This document shows, one piece after another, positions 17,587 to 26,764 of a DNA stretch of 38,930 nt. Source of the stretch: an uncultured Clostridia bacterium (GTDB lineage: Bacteria > Bacillota > Clostridia > Oscillospirales > Ruminococcaceae); the NCBI GenBank assembly GCA_947624555.1, contig CANQKW010000013.1:1-38930 (forward strand), given 5' to 3'. Under the pieces are notes generated by a model that did no database searches, had not been told where the DNA came from, and saw nothing but the letters and a program-made list of their open reading frames with translations. The translations under genes and the position numbers were made by a program. Every line of letters starts with the position of its first letter. The stretch's first letter is position 1.

Positions 17587-17663
17587 TTTCCTGCTAAATG
17601 AGCGAAATAAAAATCCCCCCAAATACGGAAGGAGCAGATTTATGCGATAATGCAAAATAATTA

Positions 17664-18021
17664 AATGCTGTCCGTCGATAAGCCGGGTTCTGTCGTGTAT
17701 AATCATCTATCTAGCTCTTTCGTCGCCAAAAGAGTCCAGCCGCCTTAAACGGGGTGCGTCGAGCAGACACATTATTCCCCGTACCAATCGGCGTTGCATC
17801 GGATAGGGTTTACATGGCAATCCGGTCTCCCGAATTCCGGTGAGCTCTTGCCTCGCCTTTCCACCCTTACAGCCGCTGAAAGCCGCTGCGGTATATCTCT
17901 GTTGCACTTGCCCTAAGGTCGCCCTCGGCTGATGTTATCAGCTACCCTGCTCTGTGATGCCCGGACTTTCCTCATAATGTTCCCACACTACGCGATTATA
18001 TAACGAACAGCGTTTAATTAC
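17664..18021 (-). ncRNA. rnpB: RNase P RNA, type A
   Basis: RNase P RNA is the catalytic RNA that removes 5' leaders from pre-tRNAs. Read on the minus strand the gene shows universal elements in order: GAGGAAAGTCCGGGC near the 5' end (P4 and CR I), GCAGGGTAGCTGATAACATC, AGGGCGACC, the conserved AAGTGCAACAGAGA with GATATACCGC, GGGTGGAAAGGCGAGGCAAG, and the 3' ACAGAACCCGGCTTATCGAC that closes P4. The P7-P12 arrangement and the lack of the Bacillus P5.1 layout fit type A. The 5' end is placed by its promoter (-10 at 18028-18033). The 3' end is approximate. Confidence 0.95.
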
Positions 18022-18231: not shown

Positions 18232-19899
18232 ATGGACGTTGAGTCATATCACCTCAATTTTGTCACCGAAGAATACGGGGAGGACGGTTTGCTGAAAAAA
18301 TTCGGCATAAAATACCCCGAAAACTTCAACTTCGGTTATGACATCATAGACAAAATTGCACAGCTTGAACCCGACAGACGGGCTTTATTGTGGGTCGACC
18401 TTGAAGGAAATGAAAAAACGCTGACATACGGGGATTTGTCGCTTTTGTCAAATCAGGCGGCAAATATGTTCCTCGAAAAGGGCATAAAAAAAGGCGACCA
18501 CGTTATACTTGTGATGAAAAGGCATTATCAGTTCTGGTATACGATGATCGCTTTGATTAAGATAGGGGCAGTGGCTATTCCTGCGACCTATCTTCTTACG
18601 GTAAAGGATTTCGTTTACCGTATGAATGCGGCAGATGTCAAGGGAGTTGTTTGCACTCACGACGGAGAAGTCGCTGATTTCATCGACGAGGCAGAAAAAA
18701 AGACCGACGGAGAGCTTAAATTCAAGTATATCGTAAACGGTTCCAAAGAAGGCTGGCTCAGCTTTGACGAGGAAATAAAAAAATATCCCGAAACTCTTGA
18801 AAGAGTGCCCACAAAGGCTGACGAATATTTCTTGCTGTACTTTACAAGCGGAACAACGGGTTATCCGAAAATGGCTGTTCACGACCACACGCTTGCTCTT
18901 GCTCATATTCAGACTGCAAAGCACTGGCAAAAGGTCTGTCCGAACGGCATTCATCTCACTGTTTCCGATACGGGCTGGGCAAAGTCCGCCTGGGGAAAAA
19001 TCTACGGTCAAATGGCTTTGGGCACCTGCATTTTCGTTTATGATTTCGACAAGTTCATACCTGAAAATATGCTGGCGATTATGGAAAAATACAAAGTCAC
19101 AACGTTTTGCGCTCCGCCGACAATGTACAGATTTTTCATCAATGCGGGTCTTGAAAAATACGATCTGTCAAGCCTTAAATATTGCAATATCGCAGGTGAG
19201 GCGCTCTCGGCGGACGTGTTTAACCGCTGGAAAGAGGCAACGGGTCTTACTCTAATGGAAGGTTTCGGGCAAACGGAAAGCACCTGCCTCATAGGAAATA
19301 TCATAGGAATGACGCCGAAACCCGGTTCAATGGGAAAGCCTACTCCGCTTTATGAGATCGATTTGGTCGATAAGGACGGAAATTCTGTTCCGCCGGGAGT
19401 TGTGGGTGAAATTGTCGTAAAGGGAGATTACAAGCATACTCCGGGACTGTTCAGAGGCTACTACAACAACGAAGAGGCTACAAAAAAGGTGTGGCACGAC
19501 GGATATTACCACACGGGCGACACGGCAAAGCGTGACGAGGACGGATATTACTGGTATGTCGGAAGAAATGATGATGTGATAAAGTCAAGCGGTTACAGGA
19601 TAGGTCCGTTTGAGATAGAGTCTGTTCTGGCAACTCACCCAGCGGTGCTTGAATGTGCGGTAACGGGCGTTCCTCATCCGATAAGAGGCGAGGTAGTCAA
19701 GGCGACAATCGTTCTTACGGAGGGATATGAGCCTACGGAAGAGCTTAAAGCCGATATACAGACATATGTTAAGAAGAACACGGCGCCGTATAAGTATCCG
19801 AGAGTTGTGGAGTTTGTGAAGGAACTTCCAAAGACGGTCAGCGGAAAAATCCGCCGTGTGGAGATACGGGAAAACGACCGCAGCAAGGATGACAAATAA
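18232..19899 (+). CDS. AMP-forming acyl-CoA synthetase / acetyl-CoA synthetase-like ligase
   Basis: A 555-residue member of the ANL adenylating family, which activates a carboxylic acid with ATP and passes it to CoA (or, in some relatives, to a carrier protein). Core motifs are YFTSGTTGYPKMAVHDH (P-loop-like), EGFGQTEST (A5), YYHTGDTAKRDEDGYYWYVG (A7-A8) and the hinge RNDDVIKSSGYRIGPFEIES. The catalytic Lys is in PKTVSGKIRRVEI near the C-terminus. The phrase VSDTGWAKSAWGKIYGQ is typical of the medium-chain/ACSM-like branch related to acetyl-CoA synthetase. Substrate is probably a short or medium acid. The gene stands alone with a perfect promoter but converges on the ketosynthase operon 335 bases away, so a role in feeding it is possible but unproven. 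Confidence 0.85.
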   Translation: MDVESYHLNFVTEEYGEDGLLKKFGIKYPENFNFGYDIIDKIAQLEPDRRALLWVDLEGNEKTLTYGDLSLLSNQAANMFLEKGIKKGDHVILVMKRHYQFWYTMIALIKIGAVAIPATYLLTVKDFVYRMNAADVKGVVCTHDGEVADFIDEAEKKTDGELKFKYIVNGSKEGWLSFDEEIKKYPETLERVPTKADEYFLLYFTSGTTGYPKMAVHDHTLALAHIQTAKHWQKVCPNGIHLTVSDTGWAKSAWGKIYGQMALGTCIFVYDFDKFIPENMLAIMEKYKVTTFCAPPTMYRFFINAGLEKYDLSSLKYCNIAGEALSADVFNRWKEATGLTLMEGFGQTESTCLIGNIIGMTPKPGSMGKPTPLYEIDLVDKDGNSVPPGVVGEIVVKGDYKHTPGLFRGYYNNEEATKKVWHDGYYHTGDTAKRDEDGYYWYVGRNDDVIKSSGYRIGPFEIESVLATHPAVLECAVTGVPHPIRGEVVKATIVLTEGYEPTEELKADIQTYVKKNTAPYKYPRVVEFVKELPKTVSGKIRRVEIRENDRSKDDK

Positions 19900-19907
19900 A
19901 ACCCGGC

Positions 19908-20221
19908 TGTCAGCTTACAGTGTATAGTGTATAGTGAATAGTAAGAAGTGCTGCGCTTGCAGCGCAGTTATCAAAAAGTTTTTTGAAGAGTCCAGAGAAA
20001 CTTTTTTTCAAAAAAGTTTCTCTGGTCGCCGAAGGCACGGTTCAAAGGCGCTAAAGGGGTATGGGGGAAAACAAGAGTTTTCCCCCATTTTTTTGCGTTC
20101 AAAGGACGCAAAAAACCAGCCGATTTTGGCAGTTTACAATGCACAGTGCATAGTGCATAGTAAAATGTGCCGCACCTGCTCAAAAAAGCAGGAAAAACAA
20201 ATTGATTTTTTGCGTTCAAAG
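19908..20221. repeat. Cluster of direct repeats and long hairpins between convergent units
   Basis: Several repeat types share this gap. A motif built on GTGYATAGTGNATAGTAA occurs twice, about 19919-19944 and 20136-20165. CTGCGCT/AGCGCAG (19951-19967) is a 7-bp hairpin. A perfect 16-bp inverted repeat, CCAGAGAAACTTTTTT, lies at 19992-20007 with its complement at 20010-20025. A 12-bp hairpin ends in a T run (20061-20094). TTTTTTGCGT pairs with ACGCAAAAAA (20089-20115). The 16-mer TTTTTTGCGTTCAAAG is present at 20089-20104 and again at 20206-20221. This looks like a nested miniature repeat element rather than a gene. It carries no supported ORF. Confidence 0.6.
20061..20094 (+). terminator. Strong terminator inside the repeat cluster
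   Basis: ATGGGGGAAAAC (20061-20072) pairs perfectly with GTTTTCCCCCAT (20077-20088) around AAGA, followed by seven T. It should end the ligase transcript. Confidence 0.75.
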
Positions 20222-20234
20222 ATACTTTTTGAAT

Positions 20235-20945
20235 TTATTTCATCTGATGCTCCCAATGAGCGGAGGTTATCGTTTCAAACCCCTTCGGCGACAAAATAGG
20301 CTTTGAAATGCGCTTTTTCGTTTCCTCGCTCAACGAGAGCTTTTCGGCAAACTCCTCGCCCGCTTTTTTTATGTCCGAAAGATACCCGTCACGCTGACGT
20401 TTGGCATTCTCCGAAATAAAAAGCTCGCCCTGTGCGCACAAAATAGCCGTGTATTTTCCCTCTCCGCAAATCAGGTCATACTGCCTCAAAAGAGCAGGAT
20501 AAACCGCATTTGCATCAACATATCCGCAGGAAGAAATAACTACCAGCTTTTTATTGAGCAGGATTTTTTCACGCAGCTCGTGAAAACAGATATTCCTGTT
20601 CTCGGAAAAACCGCCTAAATAAGGCAGCATAAACGGCAGACAGCGGTCTGTCATCGCCTTGACCTTTGACGGCATACCGAAAAAATACAGCGGAAAACTC
20701 TCGATAATAATGTCCGCAGAGAGTATTTTTTCCCTGAGAGCCTGCATATCGTCGTTGATAACGCAGCGTCCGTTCGTTTTGCCCCAACAGGAATAACACC
20801 CCAAACAAGGCTTTATATCCAGCTTGTGAAGTTCAACCGTTTCAATGCCGACGCTTTCGGGAAAACCGCTCAAAAATGCACGGGTGACATTCATTGTGTT
20901 GGATTTTTCGCCTTTGGGACTGCCGTTTATTACAAGAACCTTCAT
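20235..20945 (-). CDS. Flavodoxin-like / NADPH-dependent FMN reductase family protein
   Basis: A 236-residue protein of the flavodoxin-like superfamily. The FMN phosphate loop is VLVINGSPKGEKSNT at the start, and the second FMN-contact region is ADIIIESFPLYFFGMPSKVK. A Cys-rich segment PCLGCYSCWGKTNGRC (four Cys, about residues 46-62) is common in the iron-sulfur flavoprotein-like group and hints at a metal or FeS site. It is the last gene of the biosynthetic operon, and its ATG overlaps the phosphopantetheinyl transferase stop by 4 bases (ATGA), so translation is coupled. Its role may be electron transfer to a desaturation or reduction step, but it could also be a passenger. The reductase substrate is unknown. 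Confidence 0.8.
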   Translation of the reverse strand: MKVLVINGSPKGEKSNTMNVTRAFLSGFPESVGIETVELHKLDIKPCLGCYSCWGKTNGRCVINDDMQALREKILSADIIIESFPLYFFGMPSKVKAMTDRCLPFMLPYLGGFSENRNICFHELREKILLNKKLVVISSCGYVDANAVYPALLRQYDLICGEGKYTAILCAQGELFISENAKRQRDGYLSDIKKAGEEFAEKLSLSEETKKRISKPILSPKGFETITSAHWEHQMK

Positions 20946-21601
20946 TGTTTCTCCTCAATCTCGGACAGCTCTTCTTCGGTAAGCTGAGGACGGTTTATGC
21001 TGTAACGGTAACGCTCGCCGCAAAGATAAATTTCCCCGTCTATAAAAAATTCGCCGTTAAGATTGGCTGTTTTCAGCGTATCAAAGATGTCCGAACCTGC
21101 ACGTTTCACATAAGCCTCACGGTGCGTCCAGGCGGTAAAAAAGCGCTCGGGGTCGTGATTTGAACGCTTGAACTCTTCAAGCTCATCATCGTTCATAAAC
21201 GCTTTTGAAAGCTCTGACATCTTTTCGGGTGAATAATCTCTTATCCTTTGAACATCGCAGCCTATTATCACGTCCTCCGTGCTGTTTCCTATCGCAAGAG
21301 CACAAATTGCACAACCCTCGCTGTGTGAAATGCTGAAATCAAGCCCTTGAACGGAAACGTGCGGACGATTATGCTCGTCAACAGTAATGATAAGCTCGGA
21401 ACGGGCTATTTTATTCTTCTGGAGCAGACTGTCCAAAAGCAGAAATCCGCAGGCGCTGTCACAAAACGCCTCCTTGCGCTTTGACAAAATCATTTCAAAA
21501 TAATCAACAGAAGCGGCGTGGTAATTCTCCATTGCGTTTTCAACTCTCAAACGAAGAAAAGAACCGCCCGTTACAATGCAGGAAGCAAGGTCAATTTTCA
21601 T
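20942..21601 (-). CDS. Sfp-type 4'-phosphopantetheinyl transferase
   Basis: This enzyme moves phosphopantetheine from CoA to a Ser of a carrier protein, turning it into its active form. The 219-residue protein shows the family motifs in order: NRPHVSVQGLDFSISHSEG (residues 78-96, P1-P2), VIIGCDVQRIRDYSPEKM (Mg-binding Asp, about 111-128) and RFFTAWTHREAYVKRAG (P3, with Arg where many have Lys in KEA). It lies in the same operon as an ACP gene and a ketosynthase, so it probably activates that ACP rather than relying on the housekeeping AcpS. Spacing to the dehydratase stop is 15 bases. Overlap with the flavodoxin-like gene downstream is 4 bases. Confidence 0.92.
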   Translation of the reverse strand: MKIDLASCIVTGGSFLRLRVENAMENYHAASVDYFEMILSKRKEAFCDSACGFLLLDSLLQKNKIARSELIITVDEHNRPHVSVQGLDFSISHSEGCAICALAIGNSTEDVIIGCDVQRIRDYSPEKMSELSKAFMNDDELEEFKRSNHDPERFFTAWTHREAYVKRAGSDIFDTLKTANLNGEFFIDGEIYLCGERYRYSINRPQLTEEELSEIEEKQ

Positions 21602-21616
21602 AAATCATCACCGCTT

Positions 21617-22069
21617 TTATTCGCCGTAAACGGCGTTTTTATCCATAGAAGTAAACAGCATACTGCCCTTGGCTTTTACCACTCCGTCGACTGAAATTTT
21701 CGCCTCAAACTCGTATGCTGCAGCGCTTGCCAGAACACAATTCACGGAAATCTGCAAGGTATCTCCGGGAATAACGGGCTTTAAAAACTTGAAATCCTTG
21801 ACTTTCAAAAGAACGTACAACTTATTTTCATCGGATGCTGCGCTTTCAGGTGCGATTACAAGGCTGCAAAGCTGCGCCGCACTCTCAATAAGAAGAACAC
21901 CCGGCATTATCGGTGCGTCGGGAAAATGCCCGATAAAATACGGCTCGTTGACCGAAACATTTTTAATACCGACTGCGCTTTTATCGGGGATAAGCTCTGT
22001 TACACGTTCGATCATCTGAAACGGCGGACGCTGTTTAATTCTCTTGTTTATTTCGAGTAAATTCATCAT
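21617..22069 (-). CDS. FabZ-like 3-hydroxyacyl-ACP dehydratase
   Basis: A 150-residue hot-dog fold protein that removes water from 3-hydroxyacyl-ACP to give the trans-2-enoyl product. The catalytic His is in YFIGHFPDAPIMPG (His48) and the partner acid in VLLIESAAQLCSL (Glu62), in the same spacing as FabZ. The N-terminal IKQRPPFQMIERV is the usual FabZ entry (RYPFLLVDRV-like). The start MM- has GGGAG upstream. It follows the ketoreductase after 12 bases and precedes the phosphopantetheinyl transferase, so it acts in the same chain-building cycle. It could equally be a dedicated dehydratase of a polyene pathway. The two cannot be told apart from sequence. Confidence 0.87.
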   Translation of the reverse strand: MMNLLEINKRIKQRPPFQMIERVTELIPDKSAVGIKNVSVNEPYFIGHFPDAPIMPGVLLIESAAQLCSLVIAPESAASDENKLYVLLKVKDFKFLKPVIPGDTLQISVNCVLASAAAYEFEAKISVDGVVKAKGSMLFTSMDKNAVYGE

Positions 22070-22081
22070 TTTTTCTCCCTG

Positions 22082-22816
22082 TCACAGGCTTAAACCGCCG
22101 TCAAGGACGATTACCTGACCTGTCATATAGCTGAATGCGTCAGAGCAAAGCGAAACTACAACCGAAGCGACCTCGTCCGCTGTGCCGAAACGTCCCGAAG
22201 GAACGGACTTTAAGTAACCCTCTCGCTTATCCTCGGGGATTGCGTCTATCATCTCGGTTTCAATAAATCCCGGAGCTACAGCATTCACGGTGATTTTCCT
22301 CGGCGCAAGCTCCTTGGCAAGAGTGGCTGTCATTGAGTTGACAGCACCCTTGGTTGCCGAATAGACGCCCTGTCCTTCAACTGCCAGAACGGAGCTTACC
22401 GACGAGATATTGATTATTTTTCCGCCTGTTTTTATCATTTTGAGAGCGGCAGCCTGCGCACAATGAAAATATCCCTTGATGTTAATATCAAGGCTCTTGG
22501 ACAGGCTATCCTCGTTTATCATAAGCAAATAAGCGTCATCGACGACTCCTGCGTTGTTTACGAGAACGTCAAGCCTGCCGAATATCTTGTTAATCTCACG
22601 GAACATATTCTGAACCGCTTTCAGATCGGCGGTATCCGCTTTGAACGCAGCGGCTTTTCTGCCCGTTTTTTCGATTGCGGCAACGACTTCTGCGGCTTTT
22701 TGCTCGTTTGAATTATAATTAACGCATATATCATAACCGTTTTCGGCTAATTTAAGAGCGCAGGCACGTCCTATTCCTCTTGAAGCGCCTGTTACAAGTG
22801 CGACTTTATTTTCCAC
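22082..22816 (-). CDS. fabG: 3-oxoacyl-ACP reductase (FabG-like, SDR family)
   Basis: A 244-residue short-chain dehydrogenase/reductase reducing 3-ketoacyl-ACP with NADPH. Visible are the cofactor loop TGASRGIGRACA, NNAGVVD, and the catalytic triad region INISSVSSVLAVEGQGVYSA with YSATK. The C-terminus carries PGFIETEMID and the closing GQVIVLDGG typical of FabG. The start is GTG 22816, only one base after the ketosynthase stop, so the two genes are tightly coupled. The gene symbol reflects family resemblance. In this operon it is probably the pathway-dedicated reductase, and the housekeeping fabG should lie elsewhere. Confidence 0.92.
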   Translation of the reverse strand: MENKVALVTGASRGIGRACALKLAENGYDICVNYNSNEQKAAEVVAAIEKTGRKAAAFKADTADLKAVQNMFREINKIFGRLDVLVNNAGVVDDAYLLMINEDSLSKSLDINIKGYFHCAQAAALKMIKTGGKIINISSVSSVLAVEGQGVYSATKGAVNSMTATLAKELAPRKITVNAVAPGFIETEMIDAIPEDKREGYLKSVPSGRFGTADEVASVVVSLCSDAFSYMTGQVIVLDGGLSL

Positions 22817-22817
22817 A

Positions 22818-25058
22818 TTAACCTACTTTCTTCAATACGACAGCCGAATACTGTCCGCCCGAACCGACAGAAACTGCCAGCGCATAAGTGCCGTTATTGC
22901 CTTCATTGAGGGTCTTTGCAAGCACGGCTGCCTGTTCAGCGGCAGCGGCAGCGCCTGCCTCTCCGACCTCTTCTCTCACGTTTATAAACCTGCATTTTTC
23001 GCCGAAAAGCTTTGCAAAAACATTCTTTTCAAGCTCATCAAGCTCTTTATCGCCGTTTGCAAATCCGCTTACAATATCAATGTCGGCGGTGCTTATTCCG
23101 GCATTTTCGCAAGCCCCCAAAATTGCCTTTTCCAGAGCGCTCTCTGAGCCTGCTATGCTGCCAAACTCAACGGATTTATGAGCGCAGGACCAGCCTTTAA
23201 GCTCTGCATATTTCTTCGCACTGCGAGCATTTGCAGACTTTTCCGTTTCGAGGATAAGCGAAACCGAACCTTCTCCCAGCACAACGCCCTTATCGGTAAG
23301 TCCCAGTCTGCCGCTGAGAAATTCAGTAACATCGGTACATTCGTCAACTCCTGCCGCAACCATAATGCTTTCGTCGCCGTTTCTGAGGACATCTGCTGCA
23401 TAGCACAAGCTCTGCAAGCCTGCCTGATTGCCGTTAGCATTGGTTACGTTGTAACCCTTTATTCCCGCAAAAATCGAGAAATAGCCGCCTGCCGCATTGT
23501 AAACGGTATTCGGGAAAGAAAACGCAGAACCGCTTGCCGTGCCGTTTTCTATAACGTTTTTCTGGAAATTTACTATTTCGGTAAGAGGACCGTTTGCCGT
23601 ACCGATGATAATTCCTATATCTGCCGAATTGTTGTCATCAACGGTAATTCCTGCGTCACGGAGTGCTCTCATACCGCCGACAAGCTGGAGCTGTGAAAAT
23701 CTGTCAAGCTTTCTCCAGAACGCCATTTTAATGCCGTGCTCTTTGTAATCGTCGGAGGATATTTCAATGCGGTTTTTGCCGATTATCTCGCCTATGCCCG
23801 TAACAAAAATGCGCTCATTATTGGTATTGTCGGGGATTTTATGAGGCTCTTTTGCAAATACCACGGACGCATTGTTTCCGCCGAACGCAAAGGAGTTTGA
23901 CGCAGCGTAATTTATGGTTTTTTCGTGCTTTTTGTTGGGTACGAAATCAATATTTCCTGCTTTTTCTTTGAGCGTTTCAAGATTTTCTTCGGTATAGCCT
24001 ATCGTCGGAGGAACGACATTTTCGCAGACGGATTTAACGGTAAGAACAGCCTCAATAGAGCCTGCCGCACCAAGGCAGTGTCCCGTCATAGATTTTGTGG
24101 AGCTTACGGAAAGGTGGTTGTTTTCGCCAAAAATCGTGTGCAGCGACAGAAACTCTGCCTCGTCGTTCTTTGCCGTACCCGTGCCGTGAGCGTTGATATA
24201 GTCAATGTCCTTCGGCTCAAGTCCGGATTTCTTTATTGCCCTGTTTATCGCAAGCATCTGACCCTCTCCGTCGGGACGCGGAGCTGTGATGTGATGTGCG
24301 TCGGAACTTACGCCCGAACCCAATATCTCGCAGTAAATCTTAGCTCCTCTTGCAGCGGCGTGCTCGTAGCTTTCGATAATGAGAACGCCCGCACCCTCTC
24401 CGAGAGTAATGCCGTGGCTGTTGTTAAACGGAGAGCAAGGGTTTTCATCAAGTGCGTGAAGAGCGTGAAATCCTGCAAAAGCAAGCGAAGTAAAGCTGTC
24501 TGAGCCGCCTGCCGCAAAAGCGTCCGCTTTTCCTGCTCTTATCAAATCGCAGGCATAGGAAAGGCTTATCGTACCTGCTGCACAGGCATTTACGATATTT
24601 GCGGTCACGCCGTTCATTCCGAAATGCTTTGCGACGTTATTTGCAATAGCCGAAGCGGTCATTTTGAGAATATCGGAGGACTTTCCGCCGCCGTTTTTCA
24701 TTTCATCGGTGTAATAAACGTCAATGCTTGCTGCACCGCCTACGCAGTTGCCTATAATAACGCCTATCCTGTCGGAATTTTCCTCTGTGATTTCGTATCC
24801 TGCGTCCGAAAGCGCCTCTCCGGCAGCTTTTATGCACAGCAGCGACGAGCGGTCATAATCCTCGCCGGACAGCTCCTTTGAGGGGATATGCGACTCTGCG
24901 CCGAGCTTTGCATAACAGCCTTCCGTATCAAATGTGTTTATTTCTTTTATGCCCGTAATGCCGTTTACCGCATTGTTCCAACATTCGGAAACATTGTCGC
25001 CGAGAGCGCAGCAAAGTCCAAGACCTGTTACGACAACTCTTCTATCGGAATTATTCAT
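22818..25058 (-). CDS. Ketosynthase fused to a chain-length-factor-like ketosynthase domain
   Basis: A 746-residue didomain protein, close to twice the length of FabF. The N-terminal domain (1-405) is a complete condensing enzyme: Cys159 in VNACAAG, His291 in NAHGTGT and His327 in KSMTGHCLGAAG, with SNSFAFGGNNAS near its end. The C-terminal domain (about 415-746) has the same fold signature (RIFVTGIGEI, IGIIIGTANGP, LGEGSVSLILE), but the Cys position reads NGNQAG (Asn544) and both His motifs are lost (SGFANGDKE, VREEVGEAGAAAA). This is the state of chain-length factors in type II polyketide synthases, normally a separate protein. Fusion would give a fixed 1:1 KS-CLF pair. Start ATG 25058 has GAGGAAAAACG upstream. 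It lies 141 bases after the ACP gene across two hairpins. Confidence 0.92.
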   Translation of the reverse strand: MNNSDRRVVVTGLGLCCALGDNVSECWNNAVNGITGIKEINTFDTEGCYAKLGAESHIPSKELSGEDYDRSSLLCIKAAGEALSDAGYEITEENSDRIGVIIGNCVGGAASIDVYYTDEMKNGGGKSSDILKMTASAIANNVAKHFGMNGVTANIVNACAAGTISLSYACDLIRAGKADAFAAGGSDSFTSLAFAGFHALHALDENPCSPFNNSHGITLGEGAGVLIIESYEHAAARGAKIYCEILGSGVSSDAHHITAPRPDGEGQMLAINRAIKKSGLEPKDIDYINAHGTGTAKNDEAEFLSLHTIFGENNHLSVSSTKSMTGHCLGAAGSIEAVLTVKSVCENVVPPTIGYTEENLETLKEKAGNIDFVPNKKHEKTINYAASNSFAFGGNNASVVFAKEPHKIPDNTNNERIFVTGIGEIIGKNRIEISSDDYKEHGIKMAFWRKLDRFSQLQLVGGMRALRDAGITVDDNNSADIGIIIGTANGPLTEIVNFQKNVIENGTASGSAFSFPNTVYNAAGGYFSIFAGIKGYNVTNANGNQAGLQSLCYAADVLRNGDESIMVAAGVDECTDVTEFLSGRLGLTDKGVVLGEGSVSLILETEKSANARSAKKYAELKGWSCAHKSVEFGSIAGSESALEKAILGACENAGISTADIDIVSGFANGDKELDELEKNVFAKLFGEKCRFINVREEVGEAGAAAAAEQAAVLAKTLNEGNNGTYALAVSVGSGGQYSAVVLKKVG

Positions 25059-25086
25059 CGTTTTTCCTCATTTCATGACATATTTT

Positions 25087-25141
25087 AAGGCAGTACAATG
25101 CTGCCTTATGCCGCAGAATAGCAGCCGTTTTTCGGCTGCTA
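25087..25141. promoter_or_regulatory. Tandem hairpins between the ACP and ketosynthase genes
   Basis: Two perfect inverted repeats lie side by side in the only long gap of the operon: AAGGCAG/CTGCCTT (25087-25107, 7-base loop) and TAGCAGCCG/CGGCTGCTA (25119-25141, 5-base loop). Neither is followed by a good T run, so processing, stability or partial attenuation are more likely than full termination. They would let the ACP be made in excess over the ketosynthase. Confidence 0.5.
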
Positions 25142-25199
25142 CCCGTAAATAATTACAATCGGAAGTCCCACAGCGCAGGCGAGACTTTGCAAAATTCTC

Positions 25200-25442
25200 T
25201 TACAGATGCTCTTCAACGAACTTTGCAAGAGTATTTATGCTCTGGAAATTCTCTCTTGCAGCGCCTGTCATCTGAACTCCGAAGAGATTGTCAATTCCAG
25301 CAATAATTTCAATTGAATCGATCGAGTCAAGTCCGATGTCATCGCCGAAAAGCTCAGAGTCGTTTTCAAGCTCATCTTCGGGTATTCTTAAATTTTCGAC
25401 CAGCATCGCTTTGATCTTAGCGCAGATTTCTTCGTTTGTCAT
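25200..25442 (-). CDS. Acyl carrier protein
   Basis: An 80-residue acidic carrier protein that holds the growing chain on phosphopantetheine. The attachment Ser is Ser40 in IGLDSIDSIEI, the standard DSL-like site, with helix I (residues 2-18) and helix III-IV in the usual places. Ile after the Ser instead of Leu, and the second DS (residues 42-43), are small differences from housekeeping AcpP. A strong site (GGAGG) precedes ATG 25442. It is the second gene of the operon, 26 bases after the acyltransferase, and is presumably activated by the Sfp-type transferase encoded downstream. Confidence 0.92.
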   Translation of the reverse strand: MTNEEICAKIKAMLVENLRIPEDELENDSELFGDDIGLDSIDSIEIIAGIDNLFGVQMTGAARENFQSINTLAKFVEEHL

Positions 25443-25468
25443 AACTTTTTCCTCCGTAAAAATATCAT

Positions 25469-26182
25469 TTAATCGGTTATTTCACCGTTTTTTACAATTT
25501 TGCCGTACTTCTCTTCAAGAAGAGCGTAATTTTCCACCACTGCCGTATGTGCCTTTGAGATAAGATCTCTTGCGTATCTGCTATGACGGACATCGGGAGG
25601 GCAAGCGCTCTCTATCGGCTGTCCGATATAGAACTTCTGCCTCATACCGAAGAAAAACCTGTAAGTACCGTAATTTGCGCAAGGTACTATCGGAATGCCC
25701 GTTTTCGCCGAAATCAAAGCCGCACCGGGCTTAAAGTCTTCTATTTTACCGCTCTTTGAAAGTCCGCCTTCGGGAAATATAATAAGCGAGCCGCCTCGGC
25801 TTATGATTTCTTCGGAGATTTTAAACCACTCTCCGTCAGCCTCGTCAAGAGCAATCGGTATACACCTGCATAGCGAGATGAGCTTGCCGACTTTCGGCTT
25901 GTCAAACCATTTTTTCGTGACAAGCACCCACGGCTTGTATCTGCCCAGAACCGCTCCGCAAAACGCTCCGTCAAAATGGTGCGTATGATTTGCGACAAAA
26001 ACGCAGGGCTTTTTTTTCAGGCTTTTTTTCAAAAATTTATCTGCATAAATTATTTTGGGACGAAAAAAAATATAAACCAAAAAGGTTATCAGCCCCTGAA
26101 AGATTTTTCCGCCAAAGCTTTGTTCCGACGGATTTTTCTTCAAAAAATCACTTCCCCAACGGATAAAACCGTCAAATATCAA
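25469..26182 (-). CDS. PlsC-like lysophospholipid acyltransferase
   Basis: A member of the 1-acyl-glycerol-3-phosphate acyltransferase superfamily that moves an acyl chain from ACP or CoA onto a lipid or other hydroxyl acceptor at the membrane. Motif I is VANHTHHFDGAF (His and Asp of the HX4D box), motif III is LIIFPEGGLSKSG, and motif IV region is IPIVPCANYG. An N-terminal hydrophobic helix (GLITFLVYIFFRP) anchors it. The frame opens at TTG 26182, which lies almost at the expected transcript start, so translation would be nearly leaderless. TTG 26143, with GGGGAAGTG before it, is a better alternative. As first gene of the operon it probably hands off the finished chain. Confidence 0.85.
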   Translation of the reverse strand: MIFDGFIRWGSDFLKKNPSEQSFGGKIFQGLITFLVYIFFRPKIIYADKFLKKSLKKKPCVFVANHTHHFDGAFCGAVLGRYKPWVLVTKKWFDKPKVGKLISLCRCIPIALDEADGEWFKISEEIISRGGSLIIFPEGGLSKSGKIEDFKPGAALISAKTGIPIVPCANYGTYRFFFGMRQKFYIGQPIESACPPDVRHSRYARDLISKAHTAVVENYALLEEKYGKIVKNGEITD

Positions 26183-26190
26183 CCTCTTTT

Positions 26191-26219
26191 ATTATACTAT
26201 TTTTGAGCGTTTTTTACAA
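26191..26219 (-). promoter_or_regulatory. Promoter of the ketosynthase (KS-CLF) operon
   Basis: On the minus strand TTGTAA (26219-26214) and an exact TATAAT (26196-26191) are 17 bases apart. It is placed directly before the acyltransferase gene, so all seven genes can be one transcript of about 6 kb. Confidence 0.75.
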
Positions 26220-26351: not shown

Positions 26352-26633
26352 TCAATTCTCCAAATCCAAATCTTCGATAAGCCTTGAAATTTCAGCCTCG
26401 GTTTTTAATCGAATGCCGTCCCTGAGAAGCTCTTTGTCGGCAGGATAAAGCGAATTGATAGGAGTTTTATAAACCGCCAGAGGTTCGCTTTCGTTTTCCT
26501 GAAAGAGGGCGATTTTTCCGTCATATTCACGAAGAACAAAATAAACCGAATCAGCGCTTGCACTGCACAGCGAAAGCGTCTGTGAAGTCAATAATGCGGC
26601 GGCAAATAAAGCAGGTTTTTTTAGCTTTGACAT
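26352..26633 (-). CDS. Small secreted or membrane-anchored protein with BofC C-terminal-like domain
   Basis: A 93-residue protein with an N-terminal signal (KLKKPALFAAALLTSQTLSL, about residues 3-22, with a possible signal peptidase site after CSASA). The mature part YFVLREYDGKIALFQENESE and ELLRDGIRLKTEAEISRLIE matches the small C-terminal domain of BofC, which in Bacillus inhibits SpoIVB protease signalling during sporulation. Stand-alone versions are common in clostridia and their role is unknown. ATG 26633 is preferred over TTG 26639 because AAAGGAGTG sits about 9 bases before it. It is monocistronic with its own terminator. Confidence 0.65.
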   Translation of the reverse strand: MSKLKKPALFAAALLTSQTLSLCSASADSVYFVLREYDGKIALFQENESEPLAVYKTPINSLYPADKELLRDGIRLKTEAEISRLIEDLDLEN

Positions 26634-26764
26634 ATGCAATCACTCCTTTTTGAGGTAATATCTGACGAAAATATTATCTGTCATGATTTGCAAAATATCC
26701 GCTTGATAAAAGGATTTTAAACGATTTCAACACGTTTTCAACAAATTTTACAAAATAAGCCTTT

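Follow-up and report, generated by a model that had tools for sequence, protein, structure and literature searches.

A conserved operon around a fused ketosynthase and chain-length factor in Clostridia: a possible fatty acid synthase-like cassette for membrane lipids

A DNA stretch of 38,930 nucleotides from an uncultured Clostridia bacterium of the family Ruminococcaceae (GenBank assembly GCA_947624555.1, contig CANQKW010000013.1; hereafter, the window) carries a seven-gene operon built around a ketosynthase (KS) fused to a chain-length factor (CLF). The operon lies on the minus strand, from position 26182 to 20235, and encodes a PlsC-type acyltransferase, an acyl carrier protein (ACP), the KS-CLF, a ketoreductase (KR), a FabZ-type dehydratase, an Sfp-type phosphopantetheinyl transferase and a flavodoxin-like protein, in this order. 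We propose that the cassette may be an alternative system for membrane lipids, similar to type II fatty acid synthase (FAS), in which the flavoprotein would be the probable enoyl reductase; product and activity are predicted, and we place the probability of this reading slightly below one half. The cassette is real and conserved and, within the reach of our literature searches, undescribed.

If this reading is true, gut bacteria would have, besides the ordinary pathway, a second and mobile one for membrane acyl chains, scattered in current annotation under generic names, and certain lineages may depend on the cassette alone. The recognised enoyl-ACP reductase families are FabI, FabK, FabL and FabV; the flavoprotein would add a further class and account for genomes in which such an enzyme seems to be missing. 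Should the product instead be a polyene or an unsaturated lipid, the cassette would be relevant to the search for the double-bond enzyme of Clostridia. Named strains with the cassette include Ruminococcus bromii ATCC 27255, Lachnospira eligens ATCC 27750 and Anaeroplasma bactoclasticum ATCC 27112.

The fused ketosynthase and its partner proteins

The KS-CLF is a single protein of 746 amino acids (25058-22818), in which the Pfam domains ketoacyl-synt N and C each match two stretches above cut-off. When aligned with Escherichia coli FabF, the FabF-like KS half (23847..25058, minus strand; 41 percent identity) has C159, H291, K322 and H327 at the positions of the FabF catalytic residues and is predicted to be catalytically complete, whereas the CLF half (22818..23846, minus strand; 28 percent identity) is without them, the catalytic Cys and both His having been lost. 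These four residues are invariant in 82/82 KS homologues, and position 544 of the CLF half is a residue other than Cys in 81/82. The protein is a true KS-CLF fusion, with an active-type KS and a CLF lacking the active-site Cys. The CLF profile aligns across residues 17-426 of the E. coli FabF entry, pointing to a full-length FabF relative. The AlphaFold model of the fusion has a mean predicted local distance difference test score (pLDDT) of 89.8 and a predicted template modelling score of 0.93.

The whole protein scored 479 bits with the fabF model TIGR03150, just below the cut-off of 493.75, and 463.6 bits with NF005589, above the cut-off of 387. Among solved sequences, FabF of Bacillus gave the KS half 315 bits, the ishigamide KS 210, 6smo 179, 6qsp (identified as ApeO-ApeC by PMC8358021) 172 and the actinorhodin KS 168. 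Among the matches listed, all 35 solved sequences ranked above the ishigamide KS were named 3-oxoacyl-ACP synthases, and by sequence the KS half is closest to housekeeping FabF. Its gating loop, residues 391-394 (23877-23888, minus strand), has the sequence AFGG where FabF has GFGG, A391 being invariant in 82/82 homologues; GFGG is described as conserved in FAS ketosynthases in PMC7138838.

The other partners, all on the minus strand, were identified by domain models and motifs. The PlsC-type 1-acylglycerol-3-phosphate acyltransferase (25469..26182; Pfam Acyltransferase, 70.3 bits) has an H-x4-D motif, both residues of which are present in 60/60 aligned homologues. It is followed by a dedicated ACP of 80 amino acids (25200..25442; Pfam PP-binding, 41.7 bits) with a DS motif found in 81/81 homologues. 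The FabG-like 3-ketoacyl-ACP reductase of the short-chain dehydrogenase/reductase type (22082..22816) matched adh_short_C2 with 220.6 bits and adh_short also above cut-off; with TIGR01830 it scored 253.3 bits, below the cut-off of 297.75, and the catalytic S/Y/K residues are present and invariant in 81/81 homologues. The 3-hydroxyacyl-ACP dehydratase (21617..22069) is of the FabZ type by NF000582 (128.4 bits, cut-off 113) and below cut-off with TIGR01750 (127 bits against 155); in Pfam it matched FabA-like with 84 bits, over the cut-off, and ApeI-like with 19 bits, below 28.5, and its H/E catalytic pair occurs in 77/77 homologues. Next comes the Sfp-type 4'-phosphopantetheinyl transferase (20942..21601; Pfam ACPS, 36.4 bits, cut-off 25). 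Conservation of catalytic residues across the homologues of KS, FabZ, KR, ACP and PlsC is far beyond chance.

The last gene (20235..20945, minus strand), the candidate enoyl reductase, encodes a flavodoxin-fold flavoprotein of 236 amino acids, for which FMN_red scored 63.7 bits (cut-off 24) and Flavodoxin_2 also exceeded its Pfam cut-off. Its motif C-x2-C-x2-C-x7-C is kept in 67/68 homologues. An FMN_red domain combined with a compact cysteine motif, worded as CX2CX2CX5-7C (PMC3164229), characterises the iron-sulfur flavoproteins (Isf), and the sequence has both; unlike these, the cassette protein is encoded in a lipid operon, and its cluster binding is predicted. In a profile search the nearest solved sequence was the flavone (ene-)reductase FLR of Flavonifractor plautii (7d38; E 2.5e-12), which has the same flavodoxin-like flavin mononucleotide (FMN) fold and four cysteines in the same alignment region; the model of the flavoprotein has a pLDDT of 91.8. 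We regard the protein as the probable enoyl reductase of the cassette. None of the seven operon proteins matched FabI, FabK, FabV or FabD models as its own family in Pfam and NCBIfam.

Distribution and gene neighbourhood of relatives

In the 148 genomes of the family the KS-CLF query matched 111, mostly via the KS half alone, and an open reading frame (ORF) long enough for the fusion was present in four: that of the window, a member of its genus and two more. At the level of the order, 7 of 345 genomes had matches to a profile of the CLF halves, six of these being strong. A single scan of 84,980 species genomes identified 107 confirmed relatives, of which the best 80 are covered by the locus counts below; genes in these relatives were called from open frames and similarity, not from annotation. 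The loci were found in metagenome-assembled genomes (MAGs) of Oscillospiraceae, in R. bromii ATCC 27255, Ruminococcaceae P7, Eubacterium AF22-9, Lachnospiraceae, Treponema, A. bactoclasticum ATCC 27112 and others. In L. eligens ATCC 27750 a 54 percent relative is located on a 626-kb plasmid, within an operon for ACP, KR, FabZ, FabD, AccD, a flavodoxin family protein and PlsX. Another locus (L078) occupies a contig of 5 kb whose title names Bacteroides sp. and which is perhaps mis-binned. More distant fusions, with 34 percent identity across about 90 percent of the length, occur on plasmid pBM500 of Priestia megaterium (L160) and on a Streptomyces plasmid (L161), in clusters quite different from the cassette, with FabD, KR and dehydratase genes, to which Priestia adds a thioesterase and a glycine-cleavage-T-like protein.

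When 21 KS and 21 CLF halves were placed in one tree, all KS halves formed one clade (support 94/80) and all CLF halves another (99/100), with rows from Bacillota, Mycoplasmatota and Spirochaetota interleaved. Only these two clades of the tree were used; among the twelve family FabF rows one (L016) was left out and three (L012, L014 and L024) were long noise branches. A single clade for each half together with interleaved phyla suggests one ancient fusion, followed by lateral spread.

Partners were present in the following numbers of the 80 loci: ACP 77, KR 77, FabZ 74, flavoprotein 65, PlsC 58, Sfp 32, patatin-like protein 15 and PlsX 12. A conserved cluster with these partners, which the preliminary description of the window had suggested looking for in Oscillospiraceae, does exist there and beyond. 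The account of the seven genes given there was likewise sound, their positions, strand, order and identities being borne out by ORFs together with Pfam and NCBIfam matches. The order from PlsC to flavoprotein, to which that description could match no named clostridial pathway, is not unique, being exactly repeated in 30/80 loci. Similarly, the stated absence of a malonyl-CoA:ACP transferase holds for the seven genes of the window and not for the family, FabD lying inside the cluster in 14/80 loci. AccD was found in 12 and AccA in 11 (names verified on examples). One example is the operon of A. bactoclasticum ATCC 27112, which reads ACP, KS-CLF, KR, FabZ, flavoprotein, ACP, AccB, AccC, AccD, AccA and FabD, followed by BirA- and BioY-like genes (AccB, BirA and BioY were assigned by eye).

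At least one of PlsC, patatin-like protein and PlsX was found in 71/80 loci, which strengthens the earlier suggestion of a membrane lipid as destination. PlsX converts acyl-ACP to acyl-phosphate and PlsC acylates lysophosphatidate; with this chemistry and this gene context, the acyl chain is most likely destined for glycerophospholipids.

Fatty acid synthesis in host genomes and competing explanations

The genome from which the window derives (G000; 2.2 Mb, 98.9 percent complete) has one other ketosynthase detectable with the KS-CLF query. This is a FabF (544 bits), encoded together with FabH (336 bits), FabG (320 bits) and FabZ (160 bits, NF000582), all over cut-off, with FabD (248 bits, just below the cut-off of 260.9), and with AcpP and acetyl-CoA carboxylase (ACC) subunits named by eye. 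FabV, on a separate contig (580 bits, cut-off 400), is the enoyl reductase of this ordinary FAS; FabK was searched for in this genome and not found. The preliminary description would have given way had the cassette been the sole FAS locus of the organism; with these genes elsewhere in the genome it is not, and the cassette is therefore a second system there.

We also searched for FabF, FabI, FabK, FabV and FabH in 50 genomes chosen from the 80 loci, with distant ones favoured. A separate FabF over cut-off was present in 34, FabK in 22 (17 over cut-off), FabV in 15 (over cut-off) and FabH in 19 (18 over cut-off). No convincing FabI was found in the 50 genomes with a single E. coli query; weak matches of at most 73.7 bits occurred in 48, the Anaeroplasma cassette KR giving the highest score, and some others, at 30-34 percent identity, were taken for FabG-like proteins. 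The 14 control genomes yielded FabF in 10, FabH in 11, FabK in seven (one over cut-off) and FabV in none, and hence gave no positive control for FabV. Fifteen of the 50 genomes (L082, L087, L090, L091, L095 and others, R. bromii among them) had FabF with FabK or FabV and no match to FabH.

In 11/50 genomes FabF, FabH, FabK and FabV were all not found, old yellow enzyme and medium-chain reductases not having been searched for; the flavoprotein stands beside the cassette in ten of them, and the contig of the eleventh ends too early. The isolate genome of A. bactoclasticum yielded no other FabF and no FabH. Moreover, canonical FabF was lacking in 9 of 14 genomes with FabD in the cassette versus 7 of the 36 others (Fisher p 0.005, kinship not corrected). 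We read these data as indicating that the cassette is able to act as a full FAS, while missing contigs could explain single cases. Alternatively, these bacteria may take up fatty acids from outside and retain the cassette to make a particular lipid.

The mechanism that we propose is as follows. The Sfp-type enzyme would arm the dedicated ACP, and malonyl groups would be supplied by FabD, from the host copy here and from an in-cluster copy in some relatives. The fused KS-CLF would extend the chain, probably priming itself by malonyl decarboxylation, with the CLF half setting chain length. The beta-carbon would be processed by KR and FabZ, the enoyl double bond being most likely reduced by the iron-sulfur-type flavoprotein, and PlsC (PlsX or the patatin-like protein in relatives) may then pass the acyl chain to or from glycerophospholipids. 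The cassette would be a discrete unit, probably spread horizontally. It shares with type II FAS a FabF-like KS, a FabG-like KR, FabZ, a free ACP, the PlsX/PlsC context and, in some relatives, ACC and FabD; it differs by the fusion of KS to an inactive CLF, the lack of a known enoyl reductase, the dedicated Sfp (in cassettes of the window type) and coexistence with an ordinary FAS.

A number of observations weigh against this proposal. All 11 genomes without FabF, FabH, FabK and FabV are MAGs according to their titles, and since FAS genes lie in one operon, one missing contig can remove several of them together. The Anaeroplasma isolate has an isolated FabK-like protein (402 bits, below the cut-off of 453), and FabV of G000 could serve the cassette in place of the flavoprotein. 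The resemblance of the flavoprotein to 7d38 is limited to about 106 N-terminal residues (1-106), with 17 percent identity in the fold alignment, and the protein falls outside the FLR class of ene-reductases defined by at least 30 percent identity over 80 percent. FLR itself, at about 310 amino acids, acts on flavones and needs for activity a C-terminal tail (PMC7862272) that is unmatched in the flavoprotein, whose fold is common to azoreductases and quinone reductases at large. The presence of the flavoprotein was not statistically linked to a lack of other enoyl reductases (p 1.0). In the tally of the 50 genomes, L122 was scored as lacking the flavoprotein, which its locus does carry. Of the 15 loci without it, nine end at a contig edge within about 3.2 kb and six do not; it is missing from six with more than 5.5 kb downstream (L079, L088, L107, L111, L115 and L121), in two of which, L115 and L121, KR and FabZ were likewise not found.

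A bolder version of the proposal, which we hold to be doubtful, makes the cassette an autonomous, self-priming FAS: the KS-CLF would replace FabH and FabF, the flavodoxin-fold iron-sulfur flavoprotein would represent a new class of enoyl-ACP reductase, perhaps linked to ferredoxin, and the whole would be the sole FAS of Anaeroplasma and some gut Clostridia and a second, insulated one for particular phospholipids in the organism of the window. Somewhat less credible to us is the kind of product suggested by the preliminary description, a conjugated polyenoyl chain put on a glycerolipid; the flavoprotein would then be an accessory, for instance for protection or electron transfer. In favour of this, the seven genes include no FabI, FabK or FabV, and specialised pathways typically have a CLF, an ACP of their own and Sfp. 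Among named polyketide ketosynthases the nearest is that of ishigamide, a polyene system (210 bits; its fold tied with FabF within 1 Z), and persistence of the cassette in MAGs without a detected enoyl reductase might be expected of fatty acid auxotrophs making a special lipid. However, the step from no named enoyl reductase to polyene is unsupported: FabF is a closer relative of the KS than any listed polyene KS, the dehydratase belongs to the FabZ type, with ApeI-like below cut-off, neither an aryl starter ligase nor another KS is encoded in the operon, 65/80 loci keep a flavoprotein of reductase type, and the cassette was the sole FAS found in 11/50 genomes, all of them MAGs. With a conserved flavoprotein related to an ene-reductase in the operon, the argument from absence is insecure, and we think a polyene less likely than the FAS-like cassette for membrane lipids.

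Known polyene systems resemble the cassette in part. The highly reducing type II polyketide synthase (PKS) Iga11-Iga12 of ishigamide also combines an active KS with a CLF, ACP, KR and dehydratase, but the cassette KS is nearer to FabF than to the ishigamide KS by 105 bits, and, according to PMC8358021, KS and CLF are separate proteins there and the product has four conjugated bonds. Aryl polyene clusters (ApeO-ApeC) share KS-CLF, KR, dehydratase and ACP and, as PMC8358021 describes, have a half-size CLF, a second KS (ApeR), two ACPs and ApeH/ApeP, none of which is in the window operon; its CLF is not half-size, it has one KS gene and no second, FabB-like KS, and its dehydratase is not of the ApeI type. 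Celluxanthene (cex) of cellulolytic Clostridia, a clostridial polyene pigment likewise made with an ACP and a phosphopantetheinyl transferase, depends on an iterative type I PKS (PMC12144888), no gene for which is among the seven of the cassette. Polyunsaturated fatty acid synthases (Pfa) differ as well, being multidomain type I enzymes with tandem ACPs, whereas the cassette has separate genes except for KS-CLF and one ACP of 80 amino acids.

An anaerobic arm for unsaturated fatty acids, with the KS-CLF lengthening chains that are already unsaturated and the iron-sulfur flavoprotein inserting or shifting a double bond, seems to us improbable. FabX of Helicobacter, an enzyme with FMN and [4Fe-4S], performs such a double-bond step, but has another fold. 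Coexistence of the cassette with ordinary FabF in 34/50 genomes would suit such an arm, which should nevertheless share AcpP with the main FAS, whereas ACP and Sfp are dedicated here and some genomes seem to hold the cassette only. PMC2700279 reports that Clostridium acetobutylicum makes unsaturated acids by a novel, unknown enzyme, in line with this idea. Least probable is a small secondary-metabolite type II PKS, similar to those of cispentacin or flexirubin, with a product other than a membrane lipid. The fusions with 34 percent identity in metabolite-like clusters of the Priestia and Streptomyces plasmids speak for it, as do matches to the AmcB, AmcE, AmcF and FlxB models; these, however, stayed below cut-off (AmcB 37, AmcE 56 and AmcF 271 bits against 80, 140 and 325; FlxB likewise), and the ordinary FabF and FabG of the window's genome also match AmcF and FlxB. 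Furthermore, the window operon is without tailoring, transport or release genes, and PlsC, PlsX or patatin accompanies the cassette in 71/80 loci.

Transcription signals and surroundings of the operon

The genes of the operon are separated by gaps of 26, 141, 1, 12 and 15 bp and by one 4-bp overlap; the tight packing described earlier thus applies to most junctions, the exception being the 141-bp spacer between ACP and KS-CLF. Strong hairpins are predicted in this spacer (25062..25199, minus strand), its minimum free energy being -46.8 versus -33.2 in shuffled sequences (z -4.1); five related spacers gave z -0.45 to -2.5. A sigma-70-like promoter candidate, TTGTAA-17-TATAAT (26191..26219, minus strand), agrees with the consensus at 10/12 positions in a scan for consensus only. 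It ends 9 bp 5' of the TTG taken as the PlsC start, a start codon that is uncertain, and one promoter for all seven genes is plausible, with this as the candidate site.

Directly upstream of PlsC, on the minus strand, lies a small ORF of 95 amino acids (26352-26639) with a signal-peptide-like start (by eye) and no Pfam match, a relative of which occurs near the cassette in nine other loci. On the other side, convergent with the operon, an acyl-CoA synthetase gene (18232-19899, plus strand) is MbcS-like at 523 bits, under the cut-off of 850; it has a relative near the cassette in 9/80 loci and may be a source of the starter unit. The RNase P RNA of bacterial class A is encoded at 17663-18011 on the minus strand (268.6 bits). 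Finally, accidental peptides resembling GKTLVFPHTPLALLKR were noticed by eye between genes of the window (19910-20220) and of two further loci (L032, 129-467; L033, 366-626), which suggests a dispersed intergenic repeat in the genome of the window and its genus mate.

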